Shown: in pieces, positions 6,739 through 17,328 of the stretch | Layout of the letters: each line of letters opens with the position of its first letter | Position numbering within the stretch: the stretch's first letter is position 1 | Source of the DNA: Clostridia bacterium | Lineage (GTDB): Bacteria > Bacillota_A > Clostridia > Oscillospirales > CAG-272 | Assembly: GCA_017467205.1 (NCBI GenBank) | Contig: JAFTSQ010000010.1 | Location: 8,729 to 72,728 of the forward strand | Direction: 5' to 3' | DNA: 64,000 nucleotides | Made by a program: the position numbers and the translations under genes | Notes under the pieces: model-generated | Told to the model about the DNA's origin: nothing | Seen by the model: the letters and a program-made list of their open reading frames with translations, nothing else | Database searches by the model: none

Positions 6739-8142
6739 ATGTCATTTGTTCCTGCTATATGCACTCAATGCGGTGCGCAAATTGAAGTTGATAACGCGAA
6801 GGACGCAGGCATATGCTCTCATTGCGGAACGGCGTTCGTTACAGAAAAGGCTATTAAAAATTACGTTACCAACTATAACAACACCTATAACGTGGTGGAA
6901 AACGTGACTAAAATCATTTACGGAAACGAAAAGGATGAAGGTGACGATTTTCTTAAAAGAGGTCTTGCACATTTAAGTCTTGAAGAGTTTTCCGAGGCAG
7001 AAGACTGCTTTTCCAAAGCAATCAAGCTTTCCCCCTCGAATTTCGAATATAGGTTTTATAAATACGTTGTCCTGACCCGTAATTTTACTTATCTTCAACA
7101 CCTGCTTGACGATAACGAGCAGGATTTTAAGAAAATAATACGCCTTATGCCGAGTGACGTTAAGGAAAACACTTTTTCGCGCTACGGCTTAGATGCGACC
7201 GATGAGATATCCTGTGAGCTTTCTTTAATTGAAAGAGCTATTTCGATTATCAAAGAAAATGGGTACGTAAATACCGCTTTTCTGGGAAAAATCGAAAAAC
7301 TCAACGAAGAGGATGGAAAACGGCTCGCACTCGCCTTATACGAAACCCTTATCAGCGTTAAGGAAATCGCTTCTACGGACTCCGCTTTTGCGCTGACGCG
7401 CAACATTTATGAAAACGATATCGGATACGCTTTTAAGGTTATAAGAAAAATTATTGCAAGTCGTTTGCCTGAGCGAGAGCTTGATTTCGTTAAGCACGCC
7501 GACCGTCTTATAAATAAGGTCGTAAACGGTGTTTTACAGCTTTGCGATTTGTCCTACGCTGAAAGGAATAAACGCGAAAATTATTCGGAAATATCTATAA
7601 GCAACGGCATAACCTCGGTAAACGTGACAGCTCGCGCCCAAGCAGGATGCGTTTTCATTTTACCGCCTTCTGTAAAATCTTTCAAAATCTCTTTCAGCTG
7701 CACGCTAAAATTTACAGAGGGCTGCAGCGAGGAGCAAATTATCGGTCTTTTGAAAAGCGGAAGTGCTGCCGGCGGCGTATTCATATATTTCATATTGCCG
7801 AGCAACATAACGTCGCTTATATGCGATACACCGCTGACGTACGGACCGAGCATTATAAGCCCTGTCAAATTCCGTTGCTCATTAAAATATTTTCAATTTC
7901 TCTTGGTTATGGATGATTACGTCTTTTTACGCCAGAAAGAAGACGACGCTAAGGTGTATATAGATGCCTTAAAAAGACTTATGGGCGATGACTTTTTGAT
8001 TGGCAAAAAAATCCTTTATAATACCCTGGGCTTGCCAAACTTCAAGCCGTACGAGTATGCCGTCAACAAAGAAAATCAAGAAAAAAAGCGAGAAGAGAGA
8101 CGCAACAAGGGATTTTTTGGAAGGCTATTTGGCAAAAAATAA
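6739..8142 (+). CDS. zinc-ribbon/TPR protein of unknown function
   Basis: 467 residues. The N-terminus holds a zinc ribbon, CTQCG at about residue 8 and CSHCG at about residue 27, followed by an Asn-rich linker (YVTNYNNTYNVVENVTK) and a TPR-like pair (FLKRGLAHLSLEEFSEAEDC, FSKAIKLSPSNFEYRFYKYV). The middle is helical, the C-terminal part is beta-rich, and the protein ends in a basic tail, EERRNKGFFGRLFGKK. The zinc ribbon plus TPR start resembles that of the TIR protein at 12414-15785 and of many unnamed gut Clostridia proteins. No catalytic motif is recognisable. Confidence 0.7.
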   Translation: MSFVPAICTQCGAQIEVDNAKDAGICSHCGTAFVTEKAIKNYVTNYNNTYNVVENVTKIIYGNEKDEGDDFLKRGLAHLSLEEFSEAEDCFSKAIKLSPSNFEYRFYKYVVLTRNFTYLQHLLDDNEQDFKKIIRLMPSDVKENTFSRYGLDATDEISCELSLIERAISIIKENGYVNTAFLGKIEKLNEEDGKRLALALYETLISVKEIASTDSAFALTRNIYENDIGYAFKVIRKIIASRLPERELDFVKHADRLINKVVNGVLQLCDLSYAERNKRENYSEISISNGITSVNVTARAQAGCVFILPPSVKSFKISFSCTLKFTEGCSEEQIIGLLKSGSAAGGVFIYFILPSNITSLICDTPLTYGPSIISPVKFRCSLKYFQFLLVMDDYVFLRQKEDDAKVYIDALKRLMGDDFLIGKKILYNTLGLPNFKPYEYAVNKENQEKKREERRNKGFFGRLFGKK

Positions 8143-8266: not shown

Positions 8267-9526
8267 ATGAAACGGTCAAGAACTACCCTTATCGCTATTA
8301 GCCTTTTACTTATTTGTGCCATCACGCTGAATATCACCGGCTGTATGACGGTCAGCGCAGAGAATCTGATGGACGGTGTTACGCCTGAGCGGGTTTCGGT
8401 TACTGCCGACCTTGATGGCGGTAACGCGGCACTTGCTGATTTTGCGGTACGGCTTTTCCGCGCGAGTGTTACCGACGGTAAGAACACTCTCATCTCTCCC
8501 CTTTCGGTTATGTGCGCACTTGCAATGACTATGAACGGCGCGGAGGGCGAAACGCTCGCTGAGATGGAGGCGACGCTCGGTATGACGAAGGATGAGGTGA
8601 ACGCCTACCTTTATACCTACATTAACGCGCTTGCACAGGGTGAGAAATACAAGCTCTCGGTTGCGAACTCGATATGGTTCACAAGTGACGAGAAATTCAG
8701 CGTTAATCAGAGCTTCTTACAAACTAATGCAAACTACTATTCAGCCGATATATACAAAGCTCCCTTTGACCGCACCACATTGCGCGACATCAATCTTTGG
8801 GTCAAGGAAAGAACCGACGGAATGATACCGAAGATACTCGATGATATTCCCGACAGTGCCGTGATGTACCTCGTTAACGCTTTGGCGTTCGAGGCGGAGT
8901 GGGCATCTGTTTACGAGAAAAATCAGGTGCGCGACGGCGTGTTTACCACCGAGGACGGCAAGACTCAAAACGTCAAAATGATGTACGACACGGTTGGCAG
9001 ATATCTTGAGGATGAATACGCTACCGGCTTTATAAGGTATTACAGCGGCGCAAAATACGCCTTCGTAGCACTGCTGCCAAACGAGGACGTTTCGGTTTCG
9101 GAATATATAAGCACCCTCGACGGCGAGAGCCTTTATTCTATGCTTTCGACACCGAACTATCAAACGGTAGTAACCTCGCTGCCGAAGTTCGAGAGCGAAT
9201 ACTCCCAAGAAATGAGCGACATCCTTGAAAGCCTTGGAATGACGAGCGCTTTCGACCCCAAGACAGCCGACTTCAGCGAGCTTGGCTCATCGGCGGAAGG
9301 CAACGTATTTATCTCGAGAATACTGCACAAGACCTACATCTCGGTTGGAGAAAAAGGCACGAGAGCGGGAGCGGCAACGGTAATTGAGATGGATGGCGCG
9401 GCAGCACCGGATTCTCCCGAGGAGATTAAGTACGTTTATCTTGACAGACCCTTCGTTTATATGCTAATCGACTGCGAAACGAACACGCCGTTCTTTATCG
9501 GAACGACGATGAGCGTTGCCAACTAA
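8267..9526 (+). CDS. serpin, lipoprotein (paralogue A)
   Basis: 419 residues. A signal peptide ends in a lipobox (ITGC, Cys at about residue 26), so the mature protein should be tethered to the outer face of the membrane. The serpin fold is clear: NTLISPLSVMCALAMTMNGA, VANSIWFT, VNALAFEAEWASVYE, FVALLPNE, SLPKFESEY and the C-terminal RPFVYMLID. Serpins trap proteases by a conformational change. The hinge GTRAGAAT keeps small residues at P12-P9, which supports an inhibitory type; counting from it puts P1 near Ala in the segment DGAAAP. RBS AAAGGAG precedes the ATG. A second, similar serpin follows 81 nt downstream. Probable target: a host or competitor protease, which is inference. Confidence 0.92.
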   Translation: MKRSRTTLIAISLLLICAITLNITGCMTVSAENLMDGVTPERVSVTADLDGGNAALADFAVRLFRASVTDGKNTLISPLSVMCALAMTMNGAEGETLAEMEATLGMTKDEVNAYLYTYINALAQGEKYKLSVANSIWFTSDEKFSVNQSFLQTNANYYSADIYKAPFDRTTLRDINLWVKERTDGMIPKILDDIPDSAVMYLVNALAFEAEWASVYEKNQVRDGVFTTEDGKTQNVKMMYDTVGRYLEDEYATGFIRYYSGAKYAFVALLPNEDVSVSEYISTLDGESLYSMLSTPNYQTVVTSLPKFESEYSQEMSDILESLGMTSAFDPKTADFSELGSSAEGNVFISRILHKTYISVGEKGTRAGAATVIEMDGAAAPDSPEEIKYVYLDRPFVYMLIDCETNTPFFIGTTMSVAN

Positions 9527-9555
9527 AAATTGCAAAAGGTAGTATTCAGCGCGAA

Positions 9556-9600
9556 ATTTCAATTATAACTTGTGCAGTTGCCACAGGCGACAGAAAGGAG
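9556..9600 (+). repeat. 5'-UTR hairpin plus RBS cassette (serpin B copy)
   Basis: GTTGCC (9577-9582), ACA, GGCGAC (9586-9591), then AGAAAGGAG. The preceding 25 nt, beginning GAAATTTCAATTA, also resemble the stretch before rhaD (58298-58322), so the shared element is roughly 45-50 nt long. Confidence 0.65.
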
Positions 9601-9607
9601 ATTTTGT

Positions 9608-10870
9608 ATGAGGCGGTCACGGTTAATGCTTTCTCTTATAAGTATTATGCTCGTCCTGTCTTTTTCCCTTCAGCTCAGCGGCTGTATGACGGTCAGCGCA
9701 CAGAGCCTGATGGAGGGGATTGAGCCCGAAGAGATTTTCCCGATCGACGATATGACGGGCGGTAACGCGGCTCTTACCGATTTTGCAGTGCGGCTTTTGC
9801 GCACGAGCACGGCAGACGGCGGCGAGGTGCTCCTCTCTCCCCTTTCGATTATTTGCGCTCTTGCAATGACTATGAACGGCGCAGAGGGCGAAACGCTCGC
9901 CGAGATGGAGAGCGCGCTCGGCTTGTCGAAGGATGAGCTTAACACCTACCTTTACACATACCTGAGCAGACGACCGGAGAACGAAAGATACAAAATTTCG
10001 GTGGCTAACTCAATTTGGTTTACCGACGACGAGCGGTTCTCTGTTAACAAGAGCTTTTTGCAGTCGAACGCAAACTACTACTCTGCCGAGATTTACAAGA
10101 CTCCGTTCAACAGGTCAACTCTTAACGACATCAATCGCTGGGTCAATGACGAAACCGACGGGATGATACCGAAAATCCTTAAAAGCATTCCCGAGGAAGC
10201 CGTTATGTATCTTGTCAACGCGCTGGCGTTTGAGGCAACGTGGGAGTCTACTTACGAGGAAGACCAAGTGCGAAACGGCACTTTCACGACCGAGGACGGC
10301 ACCACAGAGAATGTCAAAATGATGTATGACGAGGCTTATTCCTACCTTGAGGACGAGTACGCAACCGGTTTTATAAGATATTACAAGCAAAAAAGGTACG
10401 CCTTTGTGGCAATGCTGCCTAATGAGGGTGTGTCCGTTGCGGAATATATCGGAACGCTTGACGGTGAGAGCCTTCACGAAATGCTTTCAAACCCCTCTCG
10501 CGAAACGGTAAAAACAGCTATACCGAAGTTTGACGGCGAATATTCGGCGGATTTATCGGGGCTACTGAAATCCCTTGGTATGACGAGCGCCTTTGACCCC
10601 GATTTTGCCGAGTTCGGAGGCATTGGCTCTTACGACGTTGACGGAAATATATATATCTCGACGGTGCTTCACAAGACCTTTATATCGGTAAGCGAGCGCG
10701 GAACGCGCGCCGGTGCTGCTACGTCCGTCGGGATGGCGGGCAACGCCGCAGGCGCTCCGCCCAGAGAGCCGAAGAAAGTTTATCTTGACAGACCGTTTGT
10801 TTATATGCTAATCGACTGCGAAACGAACACGCCGTTCTTTATCGGAACGACGATGAGCGTGAAAAATTAA
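9608..10870 (+). CDS. serpin, lipoprotein (paralogue B)
   Basis: About 420 residues from the ATG at 9608, which has AGAAAGGAG 8 nt upstream; an in-frame ATG at 9572 lacks a good RBS. The signal peptide ends LQLSGC, a lipobox. The body matches paralogue A throughout. The hinge is again GTRAGAAT, but the reactive-centre loop differs completely (SVGMAGNAAGAPPREPKK here), so the two should have different protease specificities. By contrast the last ~60 nt of the two genes are virtually identical, pointing to recent duplication or gene conversion. P1 by counting lies near Asn-Ala. Confidence 0.92.
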   Translation: MRRSRLMLSLISIMLVLSFSLQLSGCMTVSAQSLMEGIEPEEIFPIDDMTGGNAALTDFAVRLLRTSTADGGEVLLSPLSIICALAMTMNGAEGETLAEMESALGLSKDELNTYLYTYLSRRPENERYKISVANSIWFTDDERFSVNKSFLQSNANYYSAEIYKTPFNRSTLNDINRWVNDETDGMIPKILKSIPEEAVMYLVNALAFEATWESTYEEDQVRNGTFTTEDGTTENVKMMYDEAYSYLEDEYATGFIRYYKQKRYAFVAMLPNEGVSVAEYIGTLDGESLHEMLSNPSRETVKTAIPKFDGEYSADLSGLLKSLGMTSAFDPDFAEFGGIGSYDVDGNIYISTVLHKTFISVSERGTRAGAATSVGMAGNAAGAPPREPKKVYLDRPFVYMLIDCETNTPFFIGTTMSVKN

Positions 10871-11618: not shown

Positions 11619-12064
11619 ATTTCTCCTCCTAAAAATCTCTGTTCGGACGGTGTGAGCTTCACCCACAATTCACCCCTGTCAACCGCGAGCTCACCGTCCT
11701 TGATGCTCCTCAAGATATATATACGCTCAATGGGTGAAAATTGATAAAATACGTCCGAAAGCTTTACGTCAAGCTTGCCCTCTGCCACCATTTTGACGAT
11801 ATAATCCCGAGTGTGACCTCGGAAGATATCCTCGGGGTCTATATCCGGCGGCTCTACGCCGAGGCACAGTATCTCGTCTATCGACACCGAGAAAAGCCGC
11901 GACACCTCTACGAGCAAATCAATCGAGGGGATAGAGCTGCCGTTTTCCCATTTCGAGAGGGCTTGGCGAGTTATGTAAAGGCGAGAGGCGAGCTCTTCCT
12001 GCGAGAGCCCTTGCGAGCGCCGCAGCTCGCATATTTTCGCGCCTATTCTGACCATATCGAGCAT
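11615..12064 (-). CDS. XRE-family transcriptional regulator
   Basis: 149 residues. An N-terminal helix-turn-helix of the Cro/C1 type (residues about 6-62) contains LSQEELASRLYITRQALSKW and SIPSIDLLVEVSRLFSVSIDEIL. The C-terminal 85 residues are helical and without a known ligand-binding signature; the stretch FSPIERIYILRSIKDGEL loosely resembles the repeats of the downstream acidic protein. Promoter and RBS (AAAGGAG) lie just upstream. Likely autoregulatory, which is inferred only from family habit. Confidence 0.9.
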   Translation of the reverse strand: MLDMVRIGAKICELRRSQGLSQEELASRLYITRQALSKWENGSSIPSIDLLVEVSRLFSVSIDEILCLGVEPPDIDPEDIFRGHTRDYIVKMVAEGKLDVKLSDVFYQFSPIERIYILRSIKDGELAVDRGELWVKLTPSEQRFLGGEI

Positions 12065-12117: not shown

Positions 12118-12413
12118 GCAACCGTTAGTTGCGCAAAAGAGATGGTGCATTTGGGCGCAACCGAAAATGACTGAAAAATGACAAAGAAGTTCAAAAACCG
12201 CAAAGAGCTGAAACTATGTGTCATAAGGTTGAAATTCTGCGAATTTCTCCTTCAAATTAAAGTCATTTTCTATTCGCGTTTCCCTCCCTCGACATATTCA
12301 TATATGCCTCGCGGTCGGGAGAACCCGAATTTCCGTTCCAAATCCCCCTATCCCTTTATCGCATTCGGGGGTAGCTAAAGTTTTGCAACTTGAGCTACCC
12401 CCTCTTTTGTGAG
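12118..12413. other. intergenic region without a recognisable gene
   Basis: About 300 nt between the XRE promoter and the 3' end of the TIR gene. Short open frames here show no codon bias or RBS. The only structure seen is the hairpin at 12367-12402, described separately. Confidence 0.6.
12367..12402. repeat. hairpin related to the one at 40619-40658
   Basis: GGGGGTAGCT pairs with AGCTACCCCC, continued by AAGTT/AACTT after one mismatch. The core GGTAGCTCAAGTT/AACTTGAGCTACC is shared with a hairpin 28 kb away. The flank TCTTTT on the plus strand is only a weak U tract, so a terminator function for the minus-strand TIR gene is uncertain. Confidence 0.65.
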
Positions 12414-15400
12414 TTAGTCTATATCGCTTTCACAACCAACAACCTCGCCGCCGTGGTTATAGCCGCAGATGCCGCCAAGCTCGGGAGCTTTGTTCGTATA
12501 TGTACTATCGTAATCCTGCGTATAGGTTATTCCGTAGTCTTCGTCGGTGGCGTTCACTCGCTTGAATGATGAGTCTTCAATTTTTCCGACATTCAGTCCG
12601 ACGATGCCACCAAGGCAAGAATATTCGTGAGGATCGTGCCAGGTGGTAGCGTGCACGGTTTTTGCGTTTACCGAGCAGTCTAAAAGATGGCAATTTGTGA
12701 CCGTTCCGTAGTTTCTTCCTACAAGCACGCCTATCTTTGAATGCCCTGCGTTTTCAACGTCTAAGCTACAGTTCTCAAGTGTCAGGTTGCGTATAACGCC
12801 GCCTTCTGCAAGAGTAGTAAACAAGCCGACGTAATAGGTGAAATAATTATACCTGTCGTATCTCAACTCAAGATTGTAGTCAATATTTTTTATCGTGTGT
12901 CCGTTGCCGTCGAAGGTTTTGCCGTAGCCTATAAAGGTTGCCCAGGTCGAAGAAAATCTGCCGCCGAAGTCAAGGTCGGATGCGAGGGTGTAATTTCTTT
13001 CGGCTGCTGACGGGATATTCGGTATCAGCTCAAACTCATCGACCGAGCTGACGTAGACGGTTTCGGGAACGGAATTGTAGGCATACACGAGCGAGAAGAT
13101 AACGAGGGCGAAGAAGAGGACGAATAGAGCCGCCTCAAGATAGAAGGTTTTTCTATGCTCGTCGTACTTCGATTTCGCGGCGGAAAGGAATGCCCCGACA
13201 GCAAGCCCTGCAAGAGAGAGGGCTATCAGAACATACCAGCCGATCCCCCACGACTTCAAGAAGCTTGCAATTGCAAAGGCGTTCCCTGCTATGAAGAAAG
13301 CAAAGAAGGTGGGAACAGCGCCGAGGATAGCTATCAGGACGCCGTAGAGGATCGAAAGCGACTTTTGCGAATTGAAGCTATCGCCCTCAAGCACCTTGGC
13401 TGTAAGCGCCTCTGCGGTAAGCACGGAGCTTTGATAATCCGTGCCTGCGAGCGCGCGCTTTTCACTCTCGGTCATACGGTAAGTGCCGTTATAGACCGCG
13501 GTATAGTGCTCAAGCAGTCTTCCCGATGCGCAGTTGCGCGCGTTCAGGAATTCGCGCTTCGTTAAGAGATTTTTATTGTTTTTTGCAAGCTCCTCGTCGT
13601 CTGCCGCCTTCATCGTGCACTTGAGAAGTCCCCAATGCGCGCGAGGATTTTCGGTATTATAATGAAGAAGCTCGTCAAAGTAAATTCTGGCGAGGTCAAA
13701 GCGCTTTGCGTAAAGATATGCGTTAGCGCACCTTTCCGCAAACTCCTCTGCGGACTCTTGGAGTCCAAGCTGAACGTAGCAGTTAATAACCGTGTCGACG
13801 AAGGGGCGAGAGGCGTTCGAGTTATTTCTCACCTGATGAAGAACTACCGCCTCGATTCTTTCCGTATATCGCTTATCGGCATCGTCACCGTCGCCGGCGC
13901 AGATATAGATTCTCTCGATTATCTCGTCAAGGTCGAGCTTGTCGGGAGTTTTGCTTGCGGAATCGTCGTTTGGATTCGGGGATATGGTGAAGCTCTTTTT
14001 CGTCAGGTCGTACGCGCCGACGCGAGCGGAGAGCAGACCGTAATAATAGGACGCGCGCTTGCCTGCCGACGCTAAAAGCTCGTAGTATTTTCTCGCGCTC
14101 TTAAAGTCGCCGACGCCGAGCATAAGATTGGCGTGATTTTCGATAACCGAGAGGTTATAGTCCATATTCTCCTCGAAGAAGAACCTCTTCATCTCGCCTA
14201 TTACCTCGTCGCACTTTGAGTACTTACGCACCTTTGCGAACTCGGCTACGATGCCCTGCATATTTTCAACGAGCATCCTTGCGCGCTCCGCGTCGGAATA
14301 CCTCGCAAGAGTCGGAAGGAATTTCTTATAGGACTCCCATTCAGCCGATTTTTTAACTACGCCTATGAGCGTTTCGACCGCTTCCCAGGCAAAATCGGAA
14401 TCGATAGCGTGCTCTATTGCCGCCTCAAAGTCGGAAAGAGTCTTTTTATTTATCTTTGCGGGGTCGATATTCGCGTTTGAAGGGTGACCGCCGCGGCGCA
14501 TCTGACTGAAATCCTGTGCGGCAAAGCGGGCGTATGCGTTCTCATCGCGACTTTTGCCCTTAGGAGCTGCCATAACGGTGGAGAGGAATCTGCCGAAATA
14601 CGCCTTTGCGCTATCCGGATGATTTGAAATTATTCCGGAATAGATGAGCTCTGCGTCGGCAAACTTTCCGGCGTTCATCGACTGCTGCGCGAATTCGAGC
14701 TCGCGCTCCTCGCTTGCCGATATTTCTATCTTGTTATGGTGCTTGCCGGTTATCTTAATCCGCTCAACGTCGCTGCCGAAGCCTATTTTCGCACTGTCGG
14801 TCGCGAAATTGCGGGAAATCTTTTTTTCGCTGATATGAGATTTGATTCCTCGGCTTGTTTTTACGAAGGAAAGCTTGGCCGAGAGCTCTTCAAGGTAGGA
14901 GCTTTTGAACATATCGACCGAGGGTAGCTGAATCTCGCGAAGCGCGGGCGGCAGCTTGGGCATATTGCCGATGTAGGCAAGGATAAGAGAATCCTTGCGC
15001 TTAATGCCCTTCTCGGTGAAATATCTGTACCTGCGCCACTCGTTTGCAACCCAGCTCGATTCTATATGCTGTGCCGTCGTTCCGACGAGTACCATAGCCT
15101 GCGCGCTCTGGAGCGCCTTGAGGATTCTCGGCTCGTACTTCTCGCCTGCGATGCCGGTATCCGAGCCAATGGACACGGGCGAGAAGAAGACCCTATACCT
15201 ATCCTTTAAGGATTGGTATATTTCCTCAGCCTTTTTATAATCGTCGGTATCTACCGTTCTCTCTCTTCCCTCCGAGTCAGTAACCACCTCACTCTTTTTG
15301 AAGGAAATGAAGATATCGTAGGAGTTCTCCTTCGATACGAGGTCGAAGAACTCCGAAAGGAGCTTATCGAGCGCCTCACCCTGTGACTGATAGAACTCGC

Positions 15401-15785
15401 GGTCGTGGGATGACTTTGCGTACTTGAGTGCGTTCTTATAGCTCTCGTTGTTCGCAATCTTCTCCTTTTCGTCATAGTTATAGCTGAAGAAGGTAGGCTT
15501 TGCCTCCTTGCCGTCGTTTACGTAGACCACGCCGAGCGAGGAGAGCAGCTGCTGCCACCAAGCCTCGCAGCTCTCGGGATGCTTTGCGAGCAGCTCGCGG
15601 CAGAGCTCCTCCGCCTGAATGAACTCGCGCATCTGACGGCGGGATACTATTTCCTTTAGCTCGTAGGAAAATTCGTCGAGAGTATCCTTATATTCCCTAC
15701 GGCAATATTTACAAGTCAGAATACCTGTTTTCGGATGCGATGCAAGCGTTCCTCCGCAATGCAGACATTCGGTAAGATTGCTCAT
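12414..15785 (-). CDS. membrane-spanning TIR-domain protein with zinc ribbon, helical repeats and GLUG-like repeats
   Basis: 1123 residues from the ATG at 15783-15785 (AAGGAG upstream); an ATG seven codons earlier lacks an RBS. Order: zinc ribbon CLHCG/CKYC (residues 7-28), helical linker, TIR domain about 155-290 beginning YDIFISFKK, with RVFFSPVSIG and the helix GEKYEPRILKAL that would hold the NADase Glu (E215 or E218), MVLVGT, and SSWVANEWRRY. A long helical, TPR/SEL1-like region follows to about 790. Then three hydrophobic segments, including ILYGVLIAILGAVPTFFAFF and ALFVLFFALVIFSLVYAY, and a C-terminal ~200 residues of GLUG-like beta repeats (GVLVGRNYGTVTNC, GGIVGLNVGKIEDSSF, GGICGYNHGGEVVGC). 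An odd number of TM segments would put the repeats outside and the TIR inside. TIR domains of bacteria often cleave NAD+ in immunity; signalling or defence here is inference. Confidence 0.85.
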   Translation of the reverse strand: MSNLTECLHCGGTLASHPKTGILTCKYCRREYKDTLDEFSYELKEIVSRRQMREFIQAEELCRELLAKHPESCEAWWQQLLSSLGVVYVNDGKEAKPTFFSYNYDEKEKIANNESYKNALKYAKSSHDREFYQSQGEALDKLLSEFFDLVSKENSYDIFISFKKSEVVTDSEGRERTVDTDDYKKAEEIYQSLKDRYRVFFSPVSIGSDTGIAGEKYEPRILKALQSAQAMVLVGTTAQHIESSWVANEWRRYRYFTEKGIKRKDSLILAYIGNMPKLPPALREIQLPSVDMFKSSYLEELSAKLSFVKTSRGIKSHISEKKISRNFATDSAKIGFGSDVERIKITGKHHNKIEISASEERELEFAQQSMNAGKFADAELIYSGIISNHPDSAKAYFGRFLSTVMAAPKGKSRDENAYARFAAQDFSQMRRGGHPSNANIDPAKINKKTLSDFEAAIEHAIDSDFAWEAVETLIGVVKKSAEWESYKKFLPTLARYSDAERARMLVENMQGIVAEFAKVRKYSKCDEVIGEMKRFFFEENMDYNLSVIENHANLMLGVGDFKSARKYYELLASAGKRASYYYGLLSARVGAYDLTKKSFTISPNPNDDSASKTPDKLDLDEIIERIYICAGDGDDADKRYTERIEAVVLHQVRNNSNASRPFVDTVINCYVQLGLQESAEEFAERCANAYLYAKRFDLARIYFDELLHYNTENPRAHWGLLKCTMKAADDEELAKNNKNLLTKREFLNARNCASGRLLEHYTAVYNGTYRMTESEKRALAGTDYQSSVLTAEALTAKVLEGDSFNSQKSLSILYGVLIAILGAVPTFFAFFIAGNAFAIASFLKSWGIGWYVLIALSLAGLAVGAFLSAAKSKYDEHRKTFYLEAALFVLFFALVIFSLVYAYNSVPETVYVSSVDEFELIPNIPSAAERNYTLASDLDFGGRFSSTWATFIGYGKTFDGNGHTIKNIDYNLELRYDRYNYFTYYVGLFTTLAEGGVIRNLTLENCSLDVENAGHSKIGVLVGRNYGTVTNCHLLDCSVNAKTVHATTWHDPHEYSCLGGIVGLNVGKIEDSSFKRVNATDEDYGITYTQDYDSTYTNKAPELGGICGYNHGGEVVGCESDID

Positions 15786-15827
15786 AAAAATCTCCTTAAG
15801 TGTCAATTGAAGGTTTCATTTATGTCA

Positions 15828-15856
15828 ATTATAGCACACGCGAGTGGAAAAATCAA
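15828..15856 (-). promoter_or_regulatory. promoter of the TIR gene
   Basis: Minus strand TTGATT (15856-15851), 17 nt, TATAAT (15833-15828). Two TTGACA-like repeats lie in the leader between it and the start. Confidence 0.75.
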
Positions 15857-16098: not shown

Positions 16099-17328
16099 AT
16101 GGATAAGAAAAACATCAAGAAGGTAGTTCTTGCGTACTCGGGAGGTCTTGATACCTCTATTATAATTCCGTGGCTCAAGGAAAACTATAACAACTGTGAG
16201 GTCGTTGCGGTTTCCGGCAACGTCGGTCAGGCTGACGAGCTTGAGGGCCTTGAGGAAAAGGCGCTTAAGACCGGCGCTTCGAAGCTCTATATCGAGGACC
16301 TTACCGACGAGTTCGTTGACGAATACGTTATCCCCACCGTTAAAGCAGGCGCGCTCTACGAGGAGTATATGCTCGGAACGTCGTTTGCACGCCCCGTTAT
16401 TGCAAAGAGGATAGTTGAGATAGCTCTCGCCGAGTGAGCTGACGCTATCTGCCACGGCTGCACCGGTAAGGGCAACGACCAGGTTCGCTTTGAGCTTGCT
16501 ATCAAGGCGTTTGCTCCCGATATGCCTATTATCGCACCCTGGCGCGAGTGGGATATCAAGTCCCGCGAGGAAGAGATAGATTACGCAGAGGCACATAACG
16601 TTCCTCTTAAGATAAATCGCGAAACCAACTACTCCAAGGATAAAAACCTCTGGCACTTGAGCCACGAGGGTCTTGACCTTGAGGATGCCGGAAACGAGCC
16701 GCTTTACGAGAAGGAAGGATTCCTTGAGATGGGCGTTTCTCCCCTTCAAGCGCCTGACACCCCCACCTACATCACCCTTGATTTTGAAAAGGGCGTGCCG
16801 GTTGCATTCAACGGCGAAAAGATGAGCGCGAAGGAAATTATCCTTTCACTCAACAAGGTCGGCGGAGAGAACGGTATCGGTCTTCTTGACATAGTTGAAA
16901 ACCGCCTCGTCGGTATGAAGTGCCGCGGCGTTTACGAGACCCCCGGCGGAGCTATACTCTACTTCGCACACAACTATCTTGAAACCCTCTGCCTTGACAA
17001 GATGACTATGCACAAAAAGCAGGAGCTCGCTATCACCTTTGCAGACCTCGTTTACAACGGTCAGTGGTACACTCCCCTTCGCGAAGCGCTCTCCGCCTTC
17101 GTTGACAAGACGCAGGAGAACGTTACGGGTAAGGTTAAGCTCAAGCTCTACAAGGGCAACATAATCAAGGCGGGCGCTTGGAGCGACTATTCGCTCTACT
17201 CCGAGGAGATTGCTACCTTCGGTGAGGACAACGTTTACAATCAGGCTGACAGCGCAGGCTTTATCAACCTCTTCGGTCTTCCCATCAAGGTGCAGGCTCA
17301 GGTAAACGCAAAGAACAAGAATAAGTAA
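16099..17328 (+). pseudogene. argG: argininosuccinate synthase interrupted by an in-frame TGA
   Basis: The frame encodes a full-length ArgG of 409 codons but codon 113 (16435-16437) is TGA. Upstream is the ATP-pyrophosphatase P-loop [10 protein letters not shown] and [15 protein letters not shown]; immediately downstream, in the same frame, is [20 protein letters not shown]. ArgG homologues read EGA at this junction, so TGA replaces a Gly, most simply GGA to TGA. The rest, including [15 protein letters not shown] and the C-terminal domain, is intact with no other lesion. ArgG joins citrulline and aspartate using ATP. It is the first gene of an otherwise intact arginine operon. TGA ends many other genes here (argH, for example), so general recoding is unlikely. 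Without suppression or sequence error, arginine synthesis would stop at citrulline. Confidence 0.9.

Follow-up and report, generated by a model that had tools for sequence, protein, structure and literature searches.

In a stretch of 64,000 nucleotides of Clostridia bacterium DNA (assembly GCA_017467205.1, contig JAFTSQ010000010.1, positions 8,729 to 72,728; hereafter, the window, in whose own numbering coordinates are given), a minus-strand gene (12414..15785) encodes a 1123 amino acid (aa) protein that consists, in order, of a zinc ribbon (ZnR), a helical linker, a Toll/interleukin-1 receptor (TIR) domain, a tetratricopeptide repeat (TPR)-like superhelix, three transmembrane (TM) segments, and GLUG repeats. 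The anatomy of this protein is well supported, with computation backing its domains, a catalytic-type glutamate, a predicted topology, and module exchange among relatives; from these we infer its function. The explanation that we favor, and hold to be evenly poised between right and wrong, is a membrane receptor resembling an inverted Toll-like receptor (TLR), in which the outer domain would perceive damage to the envelope or an attack, whereupon the TIR would cleave NAD+ or generate a signal derived from NAD.

The zinc ribbon (residues 1–38; 15672..15785) carries C7, C10, C25, and C28, all invariant in alignments of 50 and of 44 sequences. It is followed by the linker (residues 39–153; 15327..15671), delimited by the secondary structure of an AlphaFold2 model, the TIR domain (residues 154–315; 14841..15326), recognized by Pfam, AlphaFold2, and structure comparison, and the TPR-like superhelix (residues ~330–800; 13386..14798), recognized by Pfam (TPR), Foldseek, and the structure model. 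The membrane segments span residues 816–834 (13284..13340), 852–870 (13176..13232), and 885–903 (13077..13133), and appear as three long helices in the structure model of the full-length protein. The remaining part (residues 906–1123; 12417..13070), predicted to lie outside, contains the GLUG repeats, which the Pfam scan of the whole protein found in two stretches (PF07581: E 6.7e-8, 32.9 bits vs. a cut-off of 20.5). Every part listed in an initial annotation of this DNA (zinc ribbon, TIR, helical repeats, TM segments, and GLUG repeats) was therefore recovered by Pfam, AlphaFold2, Foldseek, or the alignments. A PADLOC-DB 2.0 scan of the protein gave one weak match, PDC-S64 (4.8e-4), confined to the zinc-ribbon region.

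On the evidence of its sequence, the protein belongs to the TIR superfamily. The isolated TIR domain matches PF13676 (7.4e-8, 33.4 bits vs. a cut-off of 28), which the Pfam scan of the whole protein did not list, and the same profile is matched by 10 out of 10 family TIR pieces at E ≤ 0.1. When the full-length model was compared to the PDB, no TIR was present among the 50 matches listed and TPR superhelices ranked on top; because these superhelices dominate the full-length comparison, the ZnR-TIR part was modeled by itself. The solved structures that best match the AlphaFold2 TIR model are the TIRs of SPARTA, MyD88, and SARM1, and in a plain Foldseek search only two matches, SARM1 and Caenorhabditis elegans TIR-1, reached an E of 0.001. 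DNPH1-type and other deoxyribosyltransferases scored 12.8–13.4 in the fold comparison, on a par with AbTir and RUN1; it is the Pfam profile, and not the fold by itself, that tells them apart. Using sequence profiles against PDB sequences, the whole-family profile had no TIR among the best 60 of 84 matches, and a TIR-only profile returned six matches (best E 0.04), comprising plant TIRs and a TLR chimera. The possibility that the TIR-like region adopts another fold, which had been raised at the outset, finds no support in the PF13676 match, the AlphaFold2 model, or the structure comparison, all of which point to a TIR domain.

The alignments also support the presence of an NADase-type glutamate at the catalytic position of this TIR. 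Based on numbering worked out from profile and structure alignments, E249 of the motif WVANE (codon at 15039..15041, minus strand) is aligned to RUN1 E100; a passage of PMC7282519 describes the role of RUN1 E100 and of E642. The initial annotation had proposed E215 or E218 as the NADase glutamate, but both are located at the BB loop and the start of helix B; E218 is likewise invariant in the alignments of 50 and 44 sequences, but occupies another place in the TIR fold, and the alignment points instead to E249. The glutamate of this WxxxE motif is conserved in 71/71 family sequences, and in five of the six pairwise comparisons the TIR ranked first in conservation among six regions. This conservation, and the position of SPARTA TIRs as top fold matches, argue against a structural tether or scaffold, in which the outer repeats would bind wall or surface polymers and the TIR would serve for protein contact only, without NAD cleavage. 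Such a role would suit the GLUG/BspA-type repeats, which are common in surface adhesins, as well as the TIRs of animal TLRs, which are scaffolds, and in the structure comparison the scaffold TIR MyD88 matches SARM1 in score. In addition, the NCBIfam adhesin model HupY matches the leucine-rich repeat (LRR) part of one relative (L007), far below its cut-off. Taking both sides together, we consider a scaffold rather unlikely.

The TIR is predicted inside and the repeats outside, a prediction that is consistent over a diverse family. In the window protein, three segments are predicted, so the even number that was named beforehand as placing the repeats in the cytosol did not occur, and the odd number combined with a positive-inside charge bias agrees with the orientation first proposed. 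Among the 71 family sequences, 37 have ≥150 residues past the first block of hydrophobic segments (these counts enter P0001 and P0002, which are one protein, separately); the number of segments is one or three in 35 of them, four in one, and six in another. Over the 35 sequences, Lys and Arg sum to 234 on the predicted inside vs. 74 outside, and 33 are inside-positive, the two others being P0022 and P0017, in which the segment at 437 is probably false. A second search used the compact relative P0070, and among the 120 matches listed (of 7992), 56 were TIR+LRR proteins by motif. Of these, 33 have a zinc ribbon as well as a single segment separating TIR from LRR, and all 33 are inside-positive; in the remaining 23, a simple hydropathy scan showed no segment at that place. 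The predicted topology, which leaves the TIR inside, speaks against a secreted or injected effector disturbing host TLR signaling; bacterial TIR proteins implicated in host subversion are described in the abstract of PMC4938393, but this already disfavored explanation is hardly credible here.

The Toll-like parallel, with a TIR near the N-terminus, was likewise borne out by the predicted topology and domain order: as in the Toll/TLR proteins of animals, the prediction is of a TIR inside and a repeat ectodomain outside. The parallel is stronger than earlier thought, since relatives have an LRR ectodomain behind a single TM segment. On the other hand, the family has the reverse order (TIR N-terminal, ectodomain C-terminal) with a zinc ribbon in front, and the window protein contains GLUG repeats instead of LRRs and three TM segments instead of one; because of these differences, we do not class it as a TLR. 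The likeness is one of layout, with no sign of common descent as a receptor.

Relatives were drawn from a sample, with the first search scoring 7995 candidates of 0.55–1.75x the query length. The family is large, is found mostly in gut Clostridia, and is apparently uncharacterized; two relatives are named at source as ‘leucine-rich repeat protein’ and ‘toll/interleukin-1 receptor domain-containing protein’. The domain order, for which no characterized system had been known to the initial annotation, is therefore not unique to the window gene; the titles and abstracts of the open-access literature searched contain no description of such an architecture, a scope that mostly excludes subscription papers and preprints, so that a description elsewhere is possible.

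Compared to its closest full-length relative (P0003), the window protein shows high identity in the inner parts (ZnR: 92%, linker: 91%, TIR: 94%) and lower values in the other parts (TPR: 81%, TM: 68%, outer domain: 72%). With five other relatives, identity is 61–73% for the TIR and 22–35% for the TPR, TM, and outer parts (29–35% for the TPR part alone). The C-terminal modules of the family comprise GLUG-like repeats, BspA-type LRRs, Flg_new repeats, a polytopic membrane part, or none. We mapped these modules on a quick tree of residues 1–340 (62 rows, 56 labeled; P0002 and P0061–P0068 omitted), on which the label GLUG denotes a BLAST link to the window outer domain (P0011, although linked, was labeled LRR by its Pfam domains). 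The labels require 18 changes compared to a mean of 31.0 in shuffles, i.e., they are more clustered, and the starred branches force at least four changes for GLUG and at least five for LRR. As judged from these comparisons, the zinc ribbon and TIR were conserved while the C-terminal module was exchanged repeatedly. Separately, a ZnR-TIR subfamily (P0061–P0068) with the motif WVRDEW has a long C-terminal part, and seven of its eight members lack a predicted membrane segment.

Expansion within a single genome was found in G042 (2.4 Mb), which has 19 TIR-profile matches on 16 contigs. In 15 of these regions that were inspected (L150–L164), a zinc ribbon was present in 14, the other one being near a contig end; five encode an LRR behind one segment, one a single segment without LRR, four a polytopic part, and five none. 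Conserved inner and variable outer halves, together with the G042 set, fit a sensor family whose members share an output head. If the trigger were instead sensed inside by the TPR superhelix, with the membrane part as an anchor only, the length (~470 aa) and strong divergence of the TPR region would be accounted for, as would members that are polytopic or lack a membrane segment. Yet tails of 150 to >1000 aa have been retained and repeatedly swapped, and the compact forms P0058, P0059, and P0070 (ZnR-TIR-TM-LRR), which have no long TPR region, still have a TM segment and LRRs, which makes inside sensing quite unlikely.

A genome scan identified 73 loci, by title mostly from Clostridia and other Bacillota, many of them animal-gut, with outliers such as Acholeplasmataceae (L020) and Myxococcales (L027). 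Proteobacteria appear among the weakest loci, which match the TIR only. Within 61 genomes around G007 (included), 15 have a match. A mobile origin was tried as an explanation and rejected: no relatives were found among 50,697 phage records, none of 206 pattern-matching stretches from viral contigs was confirmed as a relative, and the two weak matches in 72,556 plasmid records were limited to the outer domain.

In seven of the eight best-matching genome loci (L001–L008, except L002), the TIR gene adjoins members of a conserved set that encodes an SPFH protein (Band_7_1) with a double zinc ribbon, a small protein, two coiled-coil proteins (CC1 and CC2), a tandem-AAA ATPase, and a zinc ribbon-trypsin protein. 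Six members are present at L001, L005, and L007, five at L003 (the trypsin gene is not beside this locus), three at L004, two at L006, and the ATPase only at L008, at a contig edge. The operon lies at L007:2391-7949, L001:2310-7950, L003:3106-7899, L005:12366-17855, and L167:1485-6805, and its proteases contain GNSGG in 4/4 examined. In the L002 genome, the set lies at a different place, accompanied by a further TIR gene of the same type (L167; TIR match L092), and no member of the set occurs in the 64-kb window. Among the 40 best-matching loci, 17 have an SPFH gene; the remaining 33 have none. Given that Band_7_1 occurs in 21 of 22 genomes (holding 25 loci) at 0–4 copies each, 47 in total or ~1 per Mb, 0.01–0.02 would be expected per 15-kb stretch, so the link is far above chance at the locus level. 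At the genome level it is weak: CC2 (970 homologs at E ≤ 0.001 among 6703 candidates) and the TIR type occur together in seven genomes vs. 3.7 expected (p = 0.03, G007 counted). The ATPase matches the PADLOC model IetA (1.2e-37), which belongs to an anti-phage pair whose other member is a protease. Judging from the architecture they have in common, and as a guess, the zinc ribbons common to the SPFH, protease, and TIR proteins could connect them.

This operon is possibly a system in Clostridia resembling the endosomal sorting complex required for transport (ESCRT), with ESCRT-III-like coiled-coil proteins. The second AAA domain of the ATPase resembles CDC48 and CdvC/Vps4 ATPases; against a Vps4_C cut-off of 21.3 bits, the single-AAA ATPase of L167 scores 32.2 and the ATPase of L166 scores 19.0, the closest solved relatives of the latter by sequence being Cdc48/p97. 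Of four CC2 proteins scanned with Pfam, Snf7 was the top match in two (E 0.008) and the second in one (0.16), all below the cut-off, and was not listed for CC2 of L007. Genome scans for Snf7 reached 21.6 bits at best (cut-off 27.3), with the best match directly beside the tandem-AAA gene in four of the seven genomes with a match (G001, G003, G005, and G008), away from it in G002, G007, and G042, and none found in G004, G006, and G046; the same loose search was positive in 9/14 controls, none above the cut-off. MIT matches are present in five of ten genomes; only in G002 and G003 do they hit the ATPase, at its N-terminus and below the cut-off (best case 18.0 bits vs. 30), and 12/14 controls also match. 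Profiles of CC1 and CC2 had no ESCRT match in the PDB, and profile comparison found the two not alike. The ESCRT-III assignment, based on these sequence matches, is suggestive.

An mBio 2024 survey (PMC10936438), in the sections relevant here, describes archaeal ESCRT loci that contain SPFH-zinc ribbon proteins, and in those sections reports no ESCRT homologs in bacteria except PspA/Vipp1. The operon of the relatives resembles the archaeal loci in combining a zinc-ribbon SPFH protein with a neighboring Vps4-like ATPase and coiled-coil proteins, but it is bacterial, includes trypsin and TIR genes, has Snf7 and MIT scores below curated cut-offs, and does not occur in the window. The neighbors found in relatives (SPFH, a Cdc48/Vps4-like ATPase, a trypsin-like protease, and proteins with a weak likeness to Snf7), and the ties of SPFH proteins to PspA and archaeal ESCRT loci noted in the same survey, could indicate an envelope-stress receptor that signals to a membrane-maintenance system made up of SPFH, ATPase, and protease, rather than a defense protein. 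This is distinctly improbable in view of the absence of the operon near the window gene and L002, and of the mainly immune or cell-death functions of TIR enzymes elsewhere (a passage of PMC7282519, in line with general knowledge).

At the locus itself, the gene coordinates first proposed hold, and the open reading frame starts at an ATG (15785) preceded by the ribosome-binding site AAGGAGA (15791..15797, minus strand, read by eye). A sigma-70-like promoter (TTGATT-17-TATAAT, with TG ahead of the second hexamer; 15828..15856, minus strand) is located 43–71 bases upstream; it is a consensus match only, in a region with seven such matches vs. 3.8 expected. Past the stop codon is an inverted repeat without a T run (12367..12402, minus strand, read by eye), which the terminator scan did not report. 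The gene is flanked by argG, divergent from 16099, and by a same-strand helix-turn-helix gene at 12064, ~350 bases downstream, and looks like an independent gene with its own promoter. The database version of the protein (P0002) begins at M52; a zinc ribbon is present ahead of this position in 70/71 family sequences, with P0002 itself the sole exception.

Neighboring argG (16099-17328) is broken by a single in-frame TGA at 16435-16437, the remaining frame being open, and intact copies exist in relatives, e.g., adjoining the TIR gene of L151. A ZnR-TIR gene adjoins argG/argH both in the window (16099) and at L151:576-3206, in a different arrangement, which is perhaps a coincidence or an insertion site. 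Some 4 kb away from the TIR gene, a second zinc ribbon + TPR protein (6739-8142, plus strand; 467 aa), in which no TIR domain was found, has a basic C-terminal tail. Two tandem serpin genes (8267-10870, plus strand; PF00079, 2.5e-84 and 1.8e-83) carry signal sequences that look, on inspection by eye, like those of lipoproteins; in bacteria, serpins are uncommon.

Among known systems, SPARTA, SARM1, and AbTir resemble the window protein in their TIR fold and, via RUN1, in the position of the glutamate; these TIR NADases and SpbK have other sensor domains and are not known to have an outer membrane domain. BspA-type LRR/GLUG surface proteins share the C-terminal repeat families (PF13306, PF07581), but are usually secreted by a signal peptide rather than fused to a cytosolic TIR. 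Bacterial TIR-TPR group 6, as outlined in a portion of the TIR survey PMC7075850, similarly has an N-terminal TIR followed by TPRs and exceeds 700 aa, but is found chiefly in actinobacteria and has box motifs of its own, and that portion describes no zinc ribbon or outer domain.

In the inverted-TLR-like receptor that we favor, the protein would sit in the membrane with its N-terminus inside, presenting a cytosolic zinc ribbon and TIR, a TPR superhelix, three helices, and an outer GLUG domain. We infer a ligand, clustering, catalysis, and outcome as follows: the outer domain would detect an envelope signal, which could be injury to the wall or membrane or else a molecule, from a phage or a competitor, on the surface of the cell; from there, signaling would run via the membrane bundle and TPR region, leading the TIR domains to cluster; and the clustered TIRs would cleave NAD+ or produce an NAD-derived messenger, so that the cell stops or helpers are switched on. 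In many relatives, likely helpers would be the SPFH protein, Cdc48/Vps4-type ATPase, and trypsin-like protease encoded next door, perhaps recruited through the common zinc ribbons. More broadly, gut Clostridia may have true surface immune-type receptors, end-for-end TLRs with a ZnR-TIR head, swapped ectodomains, and expansions, often linked to an ESCRT-III/Vps4-like and protease module; we put this forward tentatively, as a possibility well short of even chances.

To our knowledge, the characterized bacterial TIR defense proteins that can be named are soluble and respond to signals inside the cell. With its conserved head, swapped ectodomains, expansion, and link to the operon, the family offers a concrete, testable case for bacterial surface receptors with a TIR output, and laboratory strains allow a direct test of both the receptor and the ESCRT-like ideas. 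The operon of the relatives would add a possible ESCRT-like module to the bacterial repertoire. A conserved inner TIR head with swappable outer repeats would show that the Toll-like plan exists in bacteria too, in reversed order, and, if true, would represent a bacterial transmembrane counterpart of TLR signaling that leads from surface perception to NAD-based death or membrane repair.

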